Source: Myxococcota bacterium (GTDB lineage: Bacteria > Myxococcota_A > UBA796 > UBA9615 > JAKLKC01). From it: a stretch of DNA of 64,000 bases. The position numbers were made by a program, and so were the translations under genes. The stretch is taken from positions 1 to 64,000 of the forward strand of contig JAKLKC010000010.1 of the NCBI GenBank assembly GCA_023150875.1, in the 5' to 3' direction. Below are positions 27,672 to 38,688 of this stretch, piece after piece. The notes under the pieces are model-generated. The model worked only from the letters and a program-made list of their open reading frames with translations, was not told the origin of the DNA and ran no database searches. Each line of letters opens with the position of its first letter. The stretch's first letter is position 1.

Positions 27672-29912
27672 GTGACGACCCATCCAGATCCTACCGCCCT
27701 CTCCTTCGATCCTCCGACCCCGCCCTCCGCCGAGTCCGGCGGCGAGGTCTACTACCGCGACCTCCTGCTGGACCCGTTCCAGGCCGAGGCGATCCGCCAC
27801 ATCAAGAACGGGCAGTCCGTGCTGGTCAGCGCCCCCACCGGGACGGGCAAGACCATCATCGCCGACTACATCGTCGAGCAGGCCCTGGCCGCCGGGACGG
27901 ACGTGATCTACACGGCCCCCATCAAGGCGCTGAGCAACCAGAAGTACCGGGACTACACCCGGCTCTTCGGGAAGGAGCGGGTCGGGCTGCTGACCGGCGA
28001 CCTGGTGATCAACCGGGACGCCAACCTGCGGATCATGACCACCGAGATCCTCAGGAACATGCTCCTGATGGACGAGCAGCTCCCGAACCTCTCCCACGTG
28101 ATCATCGACGAGATCCACTTCCTCGACGACGCGGAGAGGGGGACCGTGTGGGAGGAGGTCCTGATCTACCTGCCCAGCCGGGTGAAGGTGCTGGGCCTGT
28201 CGGCGACGCTGCGGAACCTCAGGCAGTTCGCCCACTGGCTCTCGTTCGTCCGGGACGAGGACGTGCGGGTGGTGCAGGAGACCCACCGGCACGTCCCCCT
28301 GCGGATGTTCATCACCAACAAGGACATCCAGGGCATGCTCCCCCGCGCCGACTACGAGAAAGCGTTCGCGCGGTGGAGCCGGGACGTGGCGCCCGCCCTG
28401 AAGAAGGCCGAGGAGCAAGCGGCCGCGGCCCGGCGGGCCGGCGGGCGGGGGCGCGGCGGGCGCGGCGGACGCGGGGCCGGGTGGGGAGGCGGTGACGAGA
28501 CCCGCCACACCGACATCGTTCGGAAGCTGGAGTCCGGCGAGTACCTGCCCTGCCTCTACTTCGCCTTCTCCCGGAAGATGTGCGAGCAGTTCGCCCACGA
28601 CCTGGCCAAGCGGAAGGAGGCGTCGTACCTGGGTCCCGCGGAGCAGGACGTGGTGCGGGAGCGGATCGCGCGCTTCGACGAGGACTTCCCGAAGGTGCTG
28701 ACCTCGGACCAGGAGGACATGTACCTGAAGGGCATCGCCTTCCACCACGCCGGCCTCCACGTCGGCCTCAAGGCGCTGGTGGAGGAGCTCTACGAGCAGC
28801 GCCTGGTGCACGTGCTGTACTGCACCTCCACCTTCGCCCTGGGCATCAACATGCCCGCGAAGACCGTCGTGTTCCACGCCCTCAAGAAGTTCAACGGCCA
28901 CACGGTGGCGCCGCTGACGGTGCGCCAGTACATGCAGAAGGCCGGGCGCGCGGGTCGGCGCGGCCTCGACGCCGTGGGCTTCGTGGTGGTGCGGGAGGAC
29001 TTTGCCGACTGGAGCGAGGACCGGGCGGCGGTCCAGCTCTACGAGGAGGGCGAGTACGAGCCGGTGGAGTCCAGCTTCAACCTCGCCTTCAACTCGGTGG
29101 TGAACCTGCTCCATCGCCACCCGCTGGAGAAGATCCGGCTGATCATCGACAAGAGCTTCCTCTCCTTCCACCACATGGAGGAGGGCCAGCGGGACCTGCG
29201 ACGCGCCGAGAAGCTGGAGGAGAAGCTCCGGGAGGAGGGCTGGGACCCGGACTCCCACGCCAGCCAGAAGCCCTTCCGCGGGCGCCTCAAGAAGGTCCGT
29301 CACCTGGTCAACCGCAGCGAGAAGGCGCAGTCGAAGGTCTACGACTCCTTCATGGAGAAGGTCGACGCCCTCAAGAAGATGGGCTACCTCGGCGCGGACC
29401 TGGAGTTCAACGCCGGCGCCCGGGTGCTGATGCACGTCCAGATCGAGGAGATCTTCGTCACGGAGGTGGTGCTGTCGGGCCTGCTCGACGGGATCGAGGA
29501 CGACCTGCTCTTCGGCGCCCTGTGCTGCCTGTGCAACGAGTTCTCGCCCACGGTTCGGATCGCCGATCGTGTGAGGGGAGAGGCGGCGAAGCTGGTGCGT
29601 GGCCTGCGCTCCATCCGCTTCGGAGACTCGGTGCGCCTCGCGGAGCGGGTGTCCGGGCTCCGGCCCACGTTCGGCGCGGAGATGATGCCCTTCGGGATCG
29701 GCTGGTACAACGGAGAGAGCCTGATGGCGTTGATGCTGATGGTGGAGTCCCGGACCGACGTGTCGGGGGACCTGGTGAGCGCCTTCCGCCGGGCCAAGGA
29801 CCTGTGCAGCCAGCTCCGGAAGGTGTACGAGCACAACGACCCCTTCATGGCGGAGCGGCTGACGGCCATCATGCGGAAGGTGAGCCGGGACGAGGTCGAG
29901 GTCATCGACTAG
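27672..29912 (+). CDS. Ski2-like DEAD/DEIH-box RNA helicase with an RGG-type insert
   Basis: A 746-residue superfamily 2 helicase. RecA domain 1 has APTGTGKT (about 54-61), DEIHFLDD (about 145) and LSATL. RecA domain 2 carries the motif VI region QKAGRAGRRGLD. The C-terminal part resembles Ski2/Mtr4 and mycobacterial HelY arch-less forms. Between the RecA domains (about 250-277) is an insert of RGG repeats (RGGRGRGGRGGRGAGWGGG), as in RNA-binding proteins. The GTG start at 27672 is the only reasonable one; the ribosome site is poor. It follows rpoH by 23 nt and may be co-transcribed. Its 3' end overlaps the convergent plsC by 11 nt. Confidence 0.9.
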   Translation: MTTHPDPTALSFDPPTPPSAESGGEVYYRDLLLDPFQAEAIRHIKNGQSVLVSAPTGTGKTIIADYIVEQALAAGTDVIYTAPIKALSNQKYRDYTRLFGKERVGLLTGDLVINRDANLRIMTTEILRNMLLMDEQLPNLSHVIIDEIHFLDDAERGTVWEEVLIYLPSRVKVLGLSATLRNLRQFAHWLSFVRDEDVRVVQETHRHVPLRMFITNKDIQGMLPRADYEKAFARWSRDVAPALKKAEEQAAAARRAGGRGRGGRGGRGAGWGGGDETRHTDIVRKLESGEYLPCLYFAFSRKMCEQFAHDLAKRKEASYLGPAEQDVVRERIARFDEDFPKVLTSDQEDMYLKGIAFHHAGLHVGLKALVEELYEQRLVHVLYCTSTFALGINMPAKTVVFHALKKFNGHTVAPLTVRQYMQKAGRAGRRGLDAVGFVVVREDFADWSEDRAAVQLYEEGEYEPVESSFNLAFNSVVNLLHRHPLEKIRLIIDKSFLSFHHMEEGQRDLRRAEKLEEKLREEGWDPDSHASQKPFRGRLKKVRHLVNRSEKAQSKVYDSFMEKVDALKKMGYLGADLEFNAGARVLMHVQIEEIFVTEVVLSGLLDGIEDDLLFGALCCLCNEFSPTVRIADRVRGEAAKLVRGLRSIRFGDSVRLAERVSGLRPTFGAEMMPFGIGWYNGESLMALMLMVESRTDVSGDLVSAFRRAKDLCSQLRKVYEHNDPFMAERLTAIMRKVSRDEVEVID

Positions 29913-30690
29913 CCTGGCGCAACTCCTCTTCCCGCAGGTCGGCGATGGCGGCCATCACGCGGTCGGTGCAGGCCTGCCAGGTCTCCCGGTCCCCGGGGCG
30001 GGACAGCAGGTCGTCCAGGGGCACGGGGGGACCGAAGCGGATGGACAGGGCCCGACCCGTCCGGGGCCAGGGCCGGTGCCGGGGCCACAGGTCCCAGAAG
30101 CCGTGGAGGTAGGCGGGCACGACCACCGGGCGGGTCTCGTGGATGATGCGGCCCACCCCCACCTTGCCGGGACCCAGGCGCCCGTCGGCGCTGCGGGTCC
30201 CCTCGGGGAAGAGCAGGACGCTCTCGCCGCTCCTGAGGAGGGTGTCCATGAAGCCGATGGCCTCGGCGTCCCGTTCCCCCCTTCGCACGGGGAAGGACTT
30301 GCCCGCGGTGACCAGCGAGTACAGCAGTGCCTTCCACCGGGACCCGTAGAACTCCGCCTTGGACGGGTACCAGAAGGGCCGGGGGTAGAGGACCACCTGG
30401 AGGGCCTGTCCGTCGATGAAGGAAGCGTGGTTGCTCAGCAGGAACCAGCCCTGGCGCCCCCGGGGCAGGTGCTCGCGGCCGTGGACGGCGAGGCGGTTGG
30501 CGAGGGACAGGAAGAGGGCGTGCACCAGCCACAGCGGGGGGCTGAGCAGGTAGAACACCACGTTGTGGAGCCGCCTGCGGTGGAGCCAGCGGATGGCGCG
30601 CCACGCCGCCGAGACGGCCTCGGGATCGTAGCGGTCACGGACCGGGGCCCGCGCGGTGGGGGGACCAGGAGGGGGGCTCGTGGGGGACAT
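29902..30690 (-). CDS. plsC: 1-acyl-sn-glycerol-3-phosphate acyltransferase family protein
   Basis: Acyl-CoA/ACP-dependent acyltransferase of 262 residues, probably making phosphatidic acid at the inner membrane. A hydrophobic helix (VVFYLLSPPLWLVHALFLSL, about 43-62) precedes the catalytic NHASFIDG (the HX4D motif, about 87) and the substrate-binding FPEGTRS (about 159). The C-terminal RFGPPVPLDD is also typical. The start ATG 30690 is preceded by a purine-poor leader. The stop lies inside the 3' end of the helicase gene on the other strand. Confidence 0.9.
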   Translation of the reverse strand: MSPTSPPPGPPTARAPVRDRYDPEAVSAAWRAIRWLHRRRLHNVVFYLLSPPLWLVHALFLSLANRLAVHGREHLPRGRQGWFLLSNHASFIDGQALQVVLYPRPFWYPSKAEFYGSRWKALLYSLVTAGKSFPVRRGERDAEAIGFMDTLLRSGESVLLFPEGTRSADGRLGPGKVGVGRIIHETRPVVVPAYLHGFWDLWPRHRPWPRTGRALSIRFGPPVPLDDLLSRPGDRETWQACTDRVMAAIADLREEELRQASR

Positions 30691-30729
30691 CGGACGCCAG
30701 TCTAGACCATGGGCGGAGGAGGACCGAGC

Positions 30730-32532
30730 GTGAGCGCGGAACACCCGGGACCTCCCCTCCATTTCGTCGCCGAGCTGCACGTCGACGACCTGCGCCTCGC
30801 CCGGCGGCCGTGGCCCCGCCGCTACCGCGCCACCGAGGACCTGGTGCGGGAGATCGCCGAGCGGGCCCGGGCCCGTGGGGTTCCCCTGAGCGTGCGGTTC
30901 CGCGAGCACTTCGCCCGGGCGACGGCCCTCTACCGGGGAGCCGGCGCGAACCTGCTCCGGGACCTGGAGGCCGGGGGGCACGAGGTCGGCACCCACGCCC
31001 ACGGGCGCCGCCTGCTCGCGGCCCGCTTCTGGATCGACCGCTGCGGGGTAGAACGCAACGACGTCGCGGTCCCGGGCTTGATCCGGAAGGGATCCCTTGG
31101 CACGGCGCTTGGCTTGTGGAAGGCTCGGGGTCTCGGGTTCCGCTACGTGACCGACCGCCTGGAGCGACCCGACTACACCCACCGGGGCTTCGTCCCCTTC
31201 CGCCCGAGCCCGCTGGGCTTGCGGCCCACCCCGGGCGGGCCGGTGGCCTGCGCCGATCCCTCCCTGGAGCCGTGGGAGTGGGGGGTGCTGTCGGTGGAGG
31301 GAGAGGCCGAGGGCACGCCGCCGTGGGGAGCCGGGCACCGGGGCCGGGTGCTCCACGCCTCCCCCCTCACCGACGGGGAGTGGGACCGGCTACTGGCCGC
31401 CCTCCACGCCCAGCTCCACCGGCCAAGGCCCGGTCCGGTGGCCTACTTCTCCTTCGCGTTCCACGAGCACAACCTGTGCGGGGACCAGGATCCGCTGGCA
31501 CCGGCGCCCGGGGCCCTGGACGCCTGGGAGCGGTTCCTGGCCCGGGCCCAGGACCTGGCGCGGGCGGGCCGGATCCGGCCCGTGACCAGCGCGGGCCTGT
31601 TCGAGGCGTGGGAGCGGAGCGCGCCGGCGGAACCACCACCGGCCGAGGGGGGGAGCGCCGCGCCGCGGCCCCACCCTCCCCGCCGCCGTCCCGGCGGGCC
31701 CTCCCGCCCCCGGGCCCTCACCCTGGACTCTGGCTTCCGGAAGATGCCCGCGCGCCTGCACGCGCCCCGCACCTCGCCTCGGGCCGTGCTGGTGGTCTCC
31801 GTCGCGGGGCGGAGGGGGGGCACCGAGGTCGGGCTGGCCCCCTTCGGGCTGGGGGGACCCTCGCCCCTCGTGGACGCGGGGATCGCCGTCCTGCTCTATG
31901 ACAGGGCGGGCACGGCCCTGCACCCGTTGCCGGGGCCGCTGCGCCCCGGGCGGCCCGAGCACGAGGACGACATCCGGGCCGCCCTGCGGGCCGGCTTCCG
32001 CGTCGCCGGGGGGGCGCCTGTGGGCCTCCTGACCTTCTCGGGGGCCGCGGTGGCGGCATCGGCGGTGCTCGCCGAGGACGATACCCCTCCCGTCTCCTTC
32101 TGGGCCGACGCCGAGGGACCCGCCGACCGGTTCGACCTCTGCCTGGCCATCCCCGGGACGGGTGCCTGGCTCGGACGGGGCCACCCCACCGGCGAGGCCT
32201 GCGCCCTCCAGGAGTTCGGCCGGAGCCTCCTGGATGCGGGTGCCTGGGAGGAGCTGGAGCCCCTTCCCCGGATGGCGCGGGTGCGGACCCCCTACCTGCG
32301 GATCCAGGCGGAGGAGGACCACGTCCACCGCCGGTACCACGGGGCGGCGCTCCGCATGCTGCAGGCGGCCGCCCGGGGCCCCTCCCCCACCTGGCGCTGC
32401 AACGACGGCCCGCCCGACCGACCCTCACCCCGGGAAGCGGACCTGGACCTGCTGCCCGGCCGCCTGGTGGACCGCGGCGACCGCGTGCTGGCGTCGCTCC
32501 TCGCCGCCCTCGCCCGGGCCGGCGCCCTCTGA
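30730..32532 (+). CDS. polysaccharide deacetylase-like/alpha-beta hydrolase-like fusion protein
   Basis: A 600-residue two-domain protein. The N-terminal part (about 1-300) looks like a NodB-type deacetylase barrel: FVAELHVDD near the start, GGHEVGTHAHGRR (the HxxH-like metal motif), RGFVPFRPSP and YFSFAFHEHN. After a Pro-rich spacer (about 310-335), residues about 345-600 look like an alpha/beta hydrolase, with GIAVLLYDRAG, a nucleophile-type elbow LLTFSGAAVAAS (the expected GxSxG is degenerate as TFSGA) and IQAEEDHVHRRYHG near the end. I chose GTG 30730 because it is preceded by GGAGGAGG; an ATG 21 nt upstream is in frame. Function unknown; a surface glycan is a plausible substrate. Confidence 0.65.
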   Translation: MSAEHPGPPLHFVAELHVDDLRLARRPWPRRYRATEDLVREIAERARARGVPLSVRFREHFARATALYRGAGANLLRDLEAGGHEVGTHAHGRRLLAARFWIDRCGVERNDVAVPGLIRKGSLGTALGLWKARGLGFRYVTDRLERPDYTHRGFVPFRPSPLGLRPTPGGPVACADPSLEPWEWGVLSVEGEAEGTPPWGAGHRGRVLHASPLTDGEWDRLLAALHAQLHRPRPGPVAYFSFAFHEHNLCGDQDPLAPAPGALDAWERFLARAQDLARAGRIRPVTSAGLFEAWERSAPAEPPPAEGGSAAPRPHPPRRRPGGPSRPRALTLDSGFRKMPARLHAPRTSPRAVLVVSVAGRRGGTEVGLAPFGLGGPSPLVDAGIAVLLYDRAGTALHPLPGPLRPGRPEHEDDIRAALRAGFRVAGGAPVGLLTFSGAAVAASAVLAEDDTPPVSFWADAEGPADRFDLCLAIPGTGAWLGRGHPTGEACALQEFGRSLLDAGAWEELEPLPRMARVRTPYLRIQAEEDHVHRRYHGAALRMLQAAARGPSPTWRCNDGPPDRPSPREADLDLLPGRLVDRGDRVLASLLAALARAGAL

Positions 32533-35013: not shown

Positions 35014-35814
35014 TCACTCGCCCTCCTCCGGGATGCCGCCTCCGGGCTCCTGGTCCCCCGGCACGCCGTCAGGGATCCGAGGCCCCGCCTCGGCGTGGGT
35101 CGCGGGCCCGAGCACGATCTGGCCCCGGATGGTGTCCAGGCGGGCGGGATCCATGCCCAGGACCTGCAACAGCTCGTCAGCACTGGAGAAGCGGCCGGCG
35201 CGGTCCCGATACTGGACGATGTTCGACGCGAGGTCGGCATCGATGCCGCGGATCTCCCGGAGCTGTTCCGCGCTCGCGGCATTGACGTTCAGGCGACCGA
35301 GGAAGCCCACGTCGTCGACCTTCCTGACCAAGTCCCGGTTGAAGCCCTGGACCTTCTCCACCTCGCCCCAGTTCTCGAAGCGACCGTACTTCTGTCGGTG
35401 CGCCAGGAGGTTGTCGGCGAGGCGGGGGGTCACCTGGGGGAGCATCACGAGCTGGTCGGCGGTGGCCTGGTTGATGTCCACCTTGCCGAGGACCACCTGG
35501 TCCTTGATGGCGCGCCGGACCTCGGGCGTCATCCCCCGGACCCTTCCCAGCTCGTCCTCGTCCTCGATGAGGCCCTGCCTCTCGCGGTAGGAGATGATGT
35601 TCGCGGCCATCTGGGGCGTGACCCCCGGAAGCTGGGCCAGTTCCTCGGCGGTCGCCGTGTTGACGTCGACCTTCCAGTCCTGGAGGTTGTCCCGGCCGAA
35701 GCCGAGCCAGCCCAGCGGCCCGGAGCCCTGGGTGCCCGCGCAGCCGGCCCCCCCGGACGCACCCAGCACGAGAGCGGTCAGCGCGACCGCGAAGCTGCGA
35801 TTGATGAGGCCCAT
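35014..35814 (-). CDS. exported protein with three tandem ComEA-type helix-hairpin-helix modules
   Basis: A 266-residue protein with an N-terminal signal whose Cys (GGAGCAG, about residue 25) may be lipidated although the lipobox is imperfect. Three copies of the ComEA-like HhH unit follow: VDVNTATAEELAQLPGVTP (about 50), VDINQATADQLVMLPQVTP (about 112) and LNVNAASAEQLREIRGID (about 173). ComEA binds DNA in the periplasm during transformation. Here the gene lies next to pilT and pilB on the same strand, which makes a DNA-uptake role attractive but unproven. The start ATG follows GGGAAGGA. A Pro/Gly-rich tail ends the protein. Confidence 0.85.
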   Translation of the reverse strand: MGLINRSFAVALTALVLGASGGAGCAGTQGSGPLGWLGFGRDNLQDWKVDVNTATAEELAQLPGVTPQMAANIISYRERQGLIEDEDELGRVRGMTPEVRRAIKDQVVLGKVDINQATADQLVMLPQVTPRLADNLLAHRQKYGRFENWGEVEKVQGFNRDLVRKVDDVGFLGRLNVNAASAEQLREIRGIDADLASNIVQYRDRAGRFSSADELLQVLGMDPARLDTIRGQIVLGPATHAEAGPRIPDGVPGDQEPGGGIPEEGE

Positions 35815-35912
35815 GGAGTCCTTCCCGACGGCCCCCGTCCCCCCGGACGCCATGGCCCGGGTGCGATTCCCGTGCCGGGCCAGCGCCAGCGGTCCGCGGG
35901 AGCGGGGTTCCT

Positions 35913-36977
35913 TCAGGACTTCCGCGCCAGGGACCGCAGCTCCTCGGGATCCGAGGAGCAGGCCAGGGCGCTCTCCAGGGTAACCTCCCCCTTCTGGATG
36001 AGCTGGGCGAGGCTCTGGTTCATGGTCATCATCCCAGACCTCGCTTGGCCCATCTGCATCTGGGAGTAGACCTGGTGGAGCTTGTCGTCCCGGATCTGGG
36101 CCCGGATGGCGGGGCTCAGGATCAACACCTCGCAGGCGAGCACCCGACCCGCTCCCCCCGCCCGGGGAAGGAGCTGCTGGCACACCACCCCCTCCAGGAC
36201 GAACGAGAGCTGCACCCGCACCCGGGGCTGGTGGTAGGCGGGGAAGACGTCGACGATGCGGTTGATGGTCTGGATGGCGCTGTTGGTGTGGAGGGAGGCC
36301 AGGACGAGGTGTCCGGTCTCGCTGACCCTGAGCGCCGCCTCGATGGTCTCCAGGTCCCGCAGCTCGCCGATGAGGACCACGTCGGGGTCCTGGCGCAGCA
36401 CGAACTTGAGGGCTCCGGCGAAGCTCTCGGTGTCGGCGCCGATCTCCCGCTGGTTCACCAGCGACTTCTTGTGGACGTGCACGTACTCGATGGGGTCCTC
36501 GACCGTGATGATGTGGGCATTCCGGCCCTGGTTCACGAGGTCCACCATGGAGGCGAGGGTCGTGGACTTCCCCGACCCCGTGGGACCCGTGACCAGCACC
36601 AGCCCCCTGGGCCGGCCCGCCAGGTCCCGCACCACCGGGGGCAGCCCCAGGGAGTCGATGGAGGGGATCTCGTAGGGGATCCGCCGGAAGACTCCCGCCA
36701 CGGCGCGCTTCTGGACGAAGACGTTGGCGCGGAAGCGCGCCATGCCCCGGATGTCGAAGGAGAGGTCCAGCTCCTTCTGCTCGTCGAACCGCTGCTTCTG
36801 GGCGTCGGTCAGGATGGAGTAGCAGAGATCCTTGGTCTCGGAGGGCGACAGGGGCTCGCCCCGGACGGGGACCAGCCGCCCGTCGATCCGCAGGCGGGGG
36901 GGCGCGTCGACGGTGATGTGGAGGTCCGAGGCGGACCGGTCGATCATCGCCCTGAGCAGGAGGGGCAGGCTCAGCAT
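35913..36977 (-). CDS. pilT: type IV pilus retraction ATPase
   Basis: Hexameric secretion-type ATPase of 354 residues that powers pilus retraction. The N-terminal PAS-like domain starts DRSASDLHI. The Walker A box is GPTGSGKST, the Asp box VEDPIEYVH and the Walker B-like element VLIGELRDLET. The His box includes GHLVLASLHTNSA. The C-terminal AIRAQIRDDK corresponds to the AIRNLIRE motif specific to PilT. It begins seven nt after the pilB stop, so the pair is an operon. Confidence 0.95.
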   Translation of the reverse strand: MLSLPLLLRAMIDRSASDLHITVDAPPRLRIDGRLVPVRGEPLSPSETKDLCYSILTDAQKQRFDEQKELDLSFDIRGMARFRANVFVQKRAVAGVFRRIPYEIPSIDSLGLPPVVRDLAGRPRGLVLVTGPTGSGKSTTLASMVDLVNQGRNAHIITVEDPIEYVHVHKKSLVNQREIGADTESFAGALKFVLRQDPDVVLIGELRDLETIEAALRVSETGHLVLASLHTNSAIQTINRIVDVFPAYHQPRVRVQLSFVLEGVVCQQLLPRAGGAGRVLACEVLILSPAIRAQIRDDKLHQVYSQMQMGQARSGMMTMNQSLAQLIQKGEVTLESALACSSDPEELRSLARKS

Positions 36978-36984
36978 GGGGCGG

Positions 36985-38688
36985 TCAGTCCCCCGCGGTG
37001 CAGCGGACCACCTCCTCGATGGTGGTCATGCCCTCCTTGAGCTTGGTGAGCGCCGACATGCGGAGGGTCTTCATGCCCTGGCGGGCCGCCTCCCTCTTGA
37101 GCTCCAGGGTGGACGCCCCGTTCAGGACGTACTCCCGGAGCTCCTCGCTCATCACCATGATCTCGTACACCGCGACGCGGCCCTTGTACCCGGTGTTGTT
37201 GCAGGTCCGGCACCCGGACCCCTGCTGCACGACGTAGGTGTCGACCTCGTCGGGGTGGACGCCGAGGTCGATGAGGGCCTGGGGCGGGACCTCGATGGGC
37301 GCCTTGCAGTCGGCGCAGACCCGGCGCATCAGGCGCTGGGCGCCGATGAGGAGCACCGAGCTGGCCACCAGGAAGGGCTCGATGCCCATGTTCAGCAGGC
37401 GGCTGACGGAGCTGGGCGCGTCGTTGGTGTGCAGGGTGGAGAGCACCAGGTGGCCCGTGAGGGCCGCCTTGATGCCGATCTCCGCGGTCTCGAAGTCCCG
37501 GATCTCGCCCACGAGGATGATGTCGGGGTCCTGGCGGAGGAAGGCGCGGAGGGCGGAGGCGAAGTTCAGCCCGATGTCGTCGTGCATCTGCACCTGGTTG
37601 ATCCCGAAGAGGTTGTACTCGACGGGGTCCTCGGCGGTGGAGATGTTGTGGGTCGACTTGTTCAGCTCCGAGAGCACGGAGTAGAGGGTGGTGGTCTTTC
37701 CTGAGCCCGTCGGACCGGTGATGAGGATCATCCCGTAGGGCTGGTGGACGGCCTTCTTGAAGGTCTCGAGGGTCTTCTCCTCGAAGCCGAGCTTGGTCAT
37801 GTCGAGCTGCAGGTTCGACTTGTCCAGCAGCCGCAGGCAGACCTTCTCGCCCCAGATGGTCGGCAGCACGTTGACCCGGAAGTCCATCTCCTTGTTCTTG
37901 CCGAGCTTGAGCTTGATGCGGCCGTCCTGGGGCAGGCGGCGCTCGGCGATGTCGAGGCTGGACATGATCTTCAGGCGGGAGGTGATGGCGTGCTTCAGCT
38001 TGACTGGGGGCTTCATCACCTCGTAGAGCATGCCGTCGATGCGGTAGCGGATCCGGAGCTGCTTCTCGTAGGGCTCGACGTGGATGTCCGACGCCCCCTT
38101 CCGGATGGCGTCCATCAGGATCAGGTTCACCAGCTTGACCACGGGGGCGTCCCCCGCGGACTTCTCGAGGTCGAGGATGTCGATGTCCTCGTCGGCGTCG
38201 TTGACCTCGATGTCCTCGTCGTCGAAGCCGCCCATCACGTCGTCGAAGGTGACGTTGGCGGTGTAGTACTTCTCGACCGCCTCCTGGACGGCCTGCTCCG
38301 AGGCGACGACGACCTCGACGTTGTAGCCGGTGAGGAACTTGATGTCGTCGATGGCGAAGATGTTCGAGGGGTCGGTCATCGCCACGATCAGCGTCGACCC
38401 CGTGCGATTCACCGGGATGACCTGGTGCTTCTGGACGACCTCCTTGGGCAGCAGCTTGATGATGTCCGGCTCGATGTCGAACTCGGAGAGGTTGATCGAC
38501 GGGACCCCGTACTGCTTGCTCAGGAAGGCGGTGAGCTCGTTCTCTTCGAGGAAGCCGAGGCGGGTGAGCTGGTAGCCGAGCCGCCCCCCGTGGGTCTTCT
38601 GCTCCTCGATGGCCTTCTGGAGCTGAAGGGGGGTGATCAGCTTCTCGCGGACGAGCAGTTCGCCCAGACGGCTGCTGTCGCTCGACAT
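36985..38688 (-). CDS. pilB: type IV pilus assembly ATPase (PilB/GspE type)
   Basis: Assembly ATPase of 567 residues. N-terminal MshEN/GSPII_E domains (LGELLVREKLITPLQLQKA) are followed by an acidic linker (residues about 150-175) and the ATPase core: GPTGSGKTTT (about 322-331), AEDPVEYN and GEIRDFETAEI. A zinc tetracysteine CADC and CRTC (about 457-495) marks PilB/GspE. The acidic linker is somewhat long. AGGAGAT precedes the ATG. It heads the pilB-pilT operon. Confidence 0.95.
   Translation of the reverse strand: MSSDSSRLGELLVREKLITPLQLQKAIEEQKTHGGRLGYQLTRLGFLEENELTAFLSKQYGVPSINLSEFDIEPDIIKLLPKEVVQKHQVIPVNRTGSTLIVAMTDPSNIFAIDDIKFLTGYNVEVVVASEQAVQEAVEKYYTANVTFDDVMGGFDDEDIEVNDADEDIDILDLEKSAGDAPVVKLVNLILMDAIRKGASDIHVEPYEKQLRIRYRIDGMLYEVMKPPVKLKHAITSRLKIMSSLDIAERRLPQDGRIKLKLGKNKEMDFRVNVLPTIWGEKVCLRLLDKSNLQLDMTKLGFEEKTLETFKKAVHQPYGMILITGPTGSGKTTTLYSVLSELNKSTHNISTAEDPVEYNLFGINQVQMHDDIGLNFASALRAFLRQDPDIILVGEIRDFETAEIGIKAALTGHLVLSTLHTNDAPSSVSRLLNMGIEPFLVASSVLLIGAQRLMRRVCADCKAPIEVPPQALIDLGVHPDEVDTYVVQQGSGCRTCNNTGYKGRVAVYEIMVMSEELREYVLNGASTLELKREAARQGMKTLRMSALTKLKEGMTTIEEVVRCTAGD

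Follow-up and report, generated by a model that had tools for sequence, protein, structure and literature searches.

One structural relative of the protein described here is ArnD, the deformylase of lipid-linked Ara4FN. According to the accessible portion of PMC10967932, the nearest relatives of ArnD are 3RXZ, 3QBU, 1Z7A and 3S6O, with 3RXZ and 3QBU placed in a low-conservation class termed NodB1.2; no NodB-hydrolase fusion of the kind considered below appears in that portion of the source. The fused carbohydrate esterases of the Bacteroidota, which the accessible parts of PMC7110780 and PMC8040265 describe as xylan-directed, resemble our family in carrying more than one esterase-type domain per protein, but members of the present family lack a hydrophobic N-terminus (hydropathy reveals no such stretch in any of the 15 full-length fusion proteins) and are found beside lipid genes.

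The fusion gene occupies positions 30730..32532 of the forward strand of the window, i.e. the whole 64,000-nucleotide stretch of Myxococcota DNA that was analysed, and encodes 600 amino acids from a GTG codon. The open reading frame runs from 30709 to a stop at 32532 (+) and would give 607 amino acids if counted from ATG 30709, which is the origin of all residue numbers used here. GTG 30730 is probably the true start, since the SD-like element GGAGGAGG (30715-30722, judged by eye) lies 7 nt upstream. A scan for promoters and terminators found none. The G+C content at codon positions 1, 2 and 3 is 0.81, 0.59 and 0.92, a coding pattern, full-length homologues share 31-40% identity (alignment A1, 15 rows), and rough dN/dS values are 0.13-0.25 for both halves in two close pairs from one genus and one pair from another. 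The N-terminal half gave a rough value of 0.35 in a third genus, whose C-terminal row was left out because the reference is out of frame. Codon-position composition, homologues and dN/dS together rule out a spurious ORF in high-GC DNA, and the frame is not a product of chance.

The initial annotation had proposed a deacetylase-type domain fused to an alpha/beta hydrolase, and separate structure predictions and searches bear this out, giving two separately folded domains. These are joined by a Pro/Arg-rich linker (31645..31710, +; about residues 313-334) with low pLDDT over residues 308-329 (model m6913d7446640). The protein is a real, conserved join of two known folds, present across one class and not found described in the literature searched (titles and abstract openings of open-licence PMC articles). 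On the predicted models, both folds and family membership are close to certain. The explanation as a whole, built on a class-restricted two-domain family with an atypical NodB/GH57-superfamily barrel, a flexible linker and an alpha/beta hydrolase, we regard as evenly balanced.

The N-terminal barrel and its relation to NodB

The barrel domain (30748..31644, +; residues 14-312, of which about 14-305 make up the fold) was folded separately because the fold search with the whole-protein model listed matches to the hydrolase half only. Folded alone with 25 rows (model me107cbd94436), it reached a pLDDT of 89.4 and a pTM of 0.90. Foldseek ranks 3rxz, a putative polysaccharide deacetylase, first (E 2.5e-5); GH57 enzymes and 1z7a come next. 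VIA-align gave Z 20.4 to HP0310 (3qbu; 242 aligned, rmsd 3.4), 20.1 to 3rxz, 19.2 to 1z7a, 18.7 to PuuE (3cl6), 18.5 to 3s6o and 16.1 to ArnD (8t0j; 212 aligned, rmsd 3.3). GH57 enzymes scored 19.6 (1k1x, a 4-alpha-glucanotransferase) and 19.0 (7e1y). For HP0310, 3rxz, 1k1x, 1z7a, PuuE and ArnD the aligned span is 212-242 residues each. The model thus agrees with the CE4/NodB barrel fold, and the barrel, as modelled, falls in the ArnD/NodB1.2 neighbourhood set out in the accessible portion of PMC10967932.

In sequence searches PF01522 is unmatched in the 25 barrel rows (E up to 1) and in the 15 full-length rows, Pfam offers no plausible family for any of the 25 barrel rows, and neither half of the window protein is recognised by Pfam and NCBIfam; the NCBIfam scan of the window protein returned no match, and PDB sequence searches with it returned no convincing one. 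Matches of the window protein to ApbA_C (12.3 bits) and DUF7302 (8 bits) are both under the Pfam cut-off and were rejected. Compared directly by hhalign, the barrel profile and canonical NodB proteins match weakly (prob 76%, 69 columns), so that a bridge through secreted-looking relatives was needed: the barrel profile A4 matches these H-x-E-P relatives at prob 97%, and they match canonical NodB at prob 96%, where the E-values are per single comparison and not per database and the canonical set consists of 16 proteins from the same class. The bridging proteins include two from the window genome (L002 559-2109, -, and L113 874-2412, +) as well as L112, L005 and L006. This secreted-looking, NodB-like family carries H-x-E-P-like and G-x-H-x-H motifs and lies mostly below the Pfam cut-off.

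Residues H24, D26, R63, R65, H91, H98, P122, D149 and W191 are invariant in the 25 barrel rows, and D27, E92, H96, H252, E253 and H254 are each present in 24; the single exception at D27 is a Glu. The initial annotation spoke of NodB-type motifs, and this holds in part. A tandem Asp (D26-D27), which sequence order after beta1 would place at MT1 of CE4 enzymes, and GHEVG at residues 90-94 are present. The H-x3-H of MT2, a spacing taken from the canonical NodB rows of the profile comparison, is replaced by H96-x-H98. The RPPYG of MT3 is absent, only P122-G123 being invariant; R63 and R65 on beta2 could take over from the MT3 Arg. Candidates for MT4 and MT5 are D149 and W191 (25/25) and H252 and H254 (24/25). 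The fold of the barrel resembles the NodB1.2 structures (HP0310 3QBU, 3RXZ, 1Z7A) and ArnD 8T0J along almost its entire length (Z 16-20), and the tandem Asp and GHEVG are retained. It differs from them in its 12-18% identity, the lack of a Pfam match, the substitution of H-x-H for H-x3-H, the missing RPPYG and the fusion to a hydrolase; its likeness to ArnD is a fold match only. It is a member of the NodB/GH57 superfamily, and is not filed as CE4 because H-x-H replaces H-x3-H and RPPYG is absent.

Because the scores of GH57 glycosidases equal those of the deacetylases (1k1x at Z 19.6), the barrel could have an activity other than that of a deacylase. The GH57 enzymes 1K1X and 7E1Y share the barrel fold at Z about 19, within longer chains (538-636 residues). 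H-x-D is a GH38 motif, so that H24/D26 could be read as the signature of a glycoside hydrolase or transferase from the GH57/GH38 side, and distant relatives carry H-x-E-P at the same place. Such an assignment appears improbable, however, as the best structure rows are deacetylase-like and GHEVG with the tandem Asp fits NodB. Less probable still is that the barrel belongs with small-molecule amidohydrolases of the PuuE kind, the hydrolase then catalysing the subsequent reaction in a soluble pathway and the lipid neighbours being incidental. PuuE and related proteins score near the top (1z7a 19.2, 3cl6 18.7, 3s6o 18.5), but PuuE allantoinase, in the accessible portion of PMC10967932, lacks both MT1 Asp residues and metal, whereas the barrel keeps both Asp, and lipid genes recur beside the fusion.

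Our preferred reading, that the barrel is a metal-dependent deacylase, is tentative and falls a little short of even. The departure from MT2 weighs against it, as does a fusion protein in genome G012 (L009 1429-3075, -) that lacks H96, H252 and H254. In this relative the three residues are replaced by Arg, Ala and Gln, respectively, while H589 is kept in the hydrolase half. It mirrors the window protein, which retains the barrel set and lacks the beta8 His.

The C-terminal hydrolase half

The C-terminal domain (31711..32529, +; residues about 335-607, the fold beginning at about 330) has the alpha/beta-hydrolase fold by the strand order of model m6913d7446640 and by a VIA Z of 21.8 to 7qjn (236 aligned, rmsd 3.7). 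The PDB structures listed for it are filled with alpha/beta hydrolases at Z up to 21.8 and 10-21% identity. It shares its fold, a Ser after beta5 and an Asp after beta7 with S9 acylaminoacyl peptidases, monoacylglycerol lipases and feruloyl esterases; unlike these enzymes it has no first elbow Gly and, in the window protein, no beta8 His.

Among the 23 fused or split rows S444, D467, E469, D473, Q533, D537 and H538 are invariant; H540 is found in 22, as is H546, which is Ala in the window protein alone. When fused and stand-alone domains are taken together (29 rows), D467, E469, P471, Q533, D537 and H538 are present throughout and S444 in 28, and among the stand-alone relatives D467, D537 and H538 occur in 15/15 and S444 in 14/15. 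The elbow is degenerate, as the initial annotation had noted: the window protein reads T442-F-S444-G-A446 in place of G-x-S-x-G. Across the 23 rows the Ser is always present, the first Gly in one and the last Gly in 22, Ala446 being confined to the window protein. From the predicted strand order we judge D537, at the end of beta7 (529-537) and present in 23/23, to occupy the canonical acid place and position 589 the canonical His place after beta8. Position 589 is His in 13 of the 23 family rows and Arg in the window protein, which has no His past residue 548.

In the window genome, the conserved polar set of the barrel is intact, while the hydrolase half lacks features that most or nearly all of its relatives keep. 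That the window protein has two working active sites is doubtful on its sequence, because it lacks the beta8 His kept in 13 of 23 family rows as well as the last elbow Gly. There are two readings of this pattern: either the hydrolase half is decaying in the window genome, or the family uses H538 and D467 as a moved triad. We lean towards a hydrolase half that is weakly active or inactive in the window genome.

It is rather unlikely that every member, the window protein included, has two active halves that take two substituents off one molecule, as the initial annotation had suggested; H538 would then be the most likely hydrolase His. The presence of S444, D467, D537 and H538 in all fused or split rows, their near-complete retention in the stand-alone relatives (14 of 15 for S444, 15 of 15 for the others) and purifying selection on both halves in the pairs tested speak for such activity. 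Against it stand the lack of any His beyond residue 548 in the window protein, its unique A446, and the non-canonical place that a beta7-loop His would have. A more specific proposal would build the triad from Ser444 (after beta5), Asp467 (after beta6) and the His538 of the D-H motif (beta7 loop), so that the beta8 His would be free to be lost; together with the H-x-H NodB barrel this would make the protein a two-step deacylase on the lipid of the neighbouring DAG-type kinase. We consider this proposal, taken whole, a long shot.

The stand-alone hydrolases form a family in which the D-x-E-G-P and D-H motifs never vary and the beta8 His is inconsistently present. They have only Peptidase_S15 or weak lactonase matches (C22, C104, C180 and C116 of G000; L024-L035, L061-L064). 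When ten relatives were searched against Pfam, the fused L011 passed Abhydrolase_6 and four of six stand-alone proteins passed Peptidase_S15. The window genome has four stand-alone hydrolase places.

Distribution, split forms and gene neighbourhood

Searched at the protein level, 58 related genomes gave matches in 29, with both halves covered in 15, including the window genome. A profile search of 71 genomes of the class, mostly fragmented drafts, matched 48 at E up to 1e-15. The barrel is present in 25 of the 71, as 21 full-length fusions, one cut by contig ends and three as two overlapping genes, the remaining class matches being stand-alone hydrolases. In G027 the two halves lie at two contig ends; G058, whose fused-type C-terminal half runs into a contig end, was left out of the count. 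The barrel profile alone matched 26 of 377 phylum genomes (E up to 1e-6), 25 of them strongly (E up to 8.5e-70), and these are the same 25 genomes, all of one class. Weak matches (E 9.7e-9 to 7e-7) came from G050, the 26th genome, and from second places in G000 and G024. A barrel of the fusion kind was consequently never seen without the hydrolase, which in 25/25 genomes is joined to it, lies next to it or is interrupted by the end of a contig. The hydrolase without the barrel is common, with 82 of 282 phylum genomes matching a mixed profile.

The initial annotation had asked whether homologs are split; they are mostly fused, and split in three genomes. Here the halves are two overlapping adjacent frames at the linker, with a DAG-kinase-like gene preceding (L084 5882-7914 in G067, L085 3462-5863 in G066 and L086 6464-8856 in G049). 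The first frame ends just past the barrel (..RSAECG*), and the overlapping second frame has a GTG next to or across this stop; in G067 the second frame is cut by a contig end, and this genome was left out of the hydrolase tree. In that tree of 37 domains, 20 fused and two split rows are separated from 15 stand-alone domains by a branch with support 100/99, and the two split rows nest inside the fused set. The tree is unrooted and does not give which side is older; given the 100/99 branch, one joining followed by a later fission fits best.

The divergent neighbour of the fusion gene in the window, about 30 nt away, encodes a PlsC-like acyltransferase (29905..30699, -; PF01553, 68 bits, cut-off 23), included here as context. 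A gene of the DAG-kinase type (Pfam DAGK_cat, 76 bits) immediately precedes the fusion gene, in the same orientation, in 13 of the 25 genomes; the copy in G052 is truncated where the contig ends. This neighbour is limited to one family, being found in 13 of its 17 fusion-bearing genomes. The other four have three upstream genes, encoding an ATPase that we take to be MoxR-like and DUF58-like and DUF4129-like proteins, the latter two both below the Pfam cut-off. Neither the DAG kinase nor the MoxR/DUF58-like set adjoins the fusion gene of the window. In nine loci a sulfatase-superfamily gene adjoins the DAG-kinase-like gene divergently, on the opposite strand (L068 735-3218, -; L076 3632-6004, +; and relatives); Pfam Sulfatase was found in all three members scanned, one of which, from G070, lies at a greater distance from the fusion gene. 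The NCBIfam match of this neighbour to LtaS (63.7 bits, cut-off 970) is too weak to name it. The sulfatase and DAG-kinase-like genes might conceivably act as a unit for phosphoglycerol transfer and DAG recycling. In G038 (L069) the 3' end of the fusion gene is overlapped by a fatty-acid desaturase gene. For the other fusion-bearing genomes the analysis revealed no common neighbour whose lipid function is clear. The lipid theme among the neighbours is suggestive and does not amount to proof.

Elsewhere in the window (35014-38688, -), two ATPase genes of the type IV pilus type lie side by side; judged by eye, they are PilT- and PilB-like. A gene encoding a protein with repeated helix-hairpin-helix-like stretches adjoins this pair.

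A possible role in lipid or glycolipid editing

The fusion protein would be located in the cytoplasm, possibly at the inner membrane face; it may edit a lipid or glycolipid. A glycan or lipid substrate, as the initial annotation had envisaged, is only suggested by the gene neighbours, and for a lipid-linked substrate in particular our confidence stays somewhat below the midpoint. In the window protein the barrel would be the working half, with a candidate metal site formed by H24/D26/D27, H96 and H98. The metal, together with the side chains of D26 and H252/H254, could cleave an amide or ester, as a deacylase, deacetylase or deformylase, in a reaction that might be likened to that of ArnD on its lipid-linked sugar. 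In relatives that possess S444-D537-H589 the hydrolase half may hydrolyse a second ester. The R589 and A446 of the window protein make a binding or degenerate domain more likely there.

A family that combines two known catalytic folds, with a barrel half invisible to Pfam, offers a way into uncharacterised lipid or glycolipid chemistry, and, since three genomes carry it in split form, its two putative activities are open to testing one by one. If the triad has indeed moved and the protein is a two-step deacylase, the fusion would represent a lipid- or glycolipid-editing enzyme of a new kind. A hydrolase half in decay in the window genome would provide an example of a two-enzyme fusion becoming an enzyme with a silent partner.
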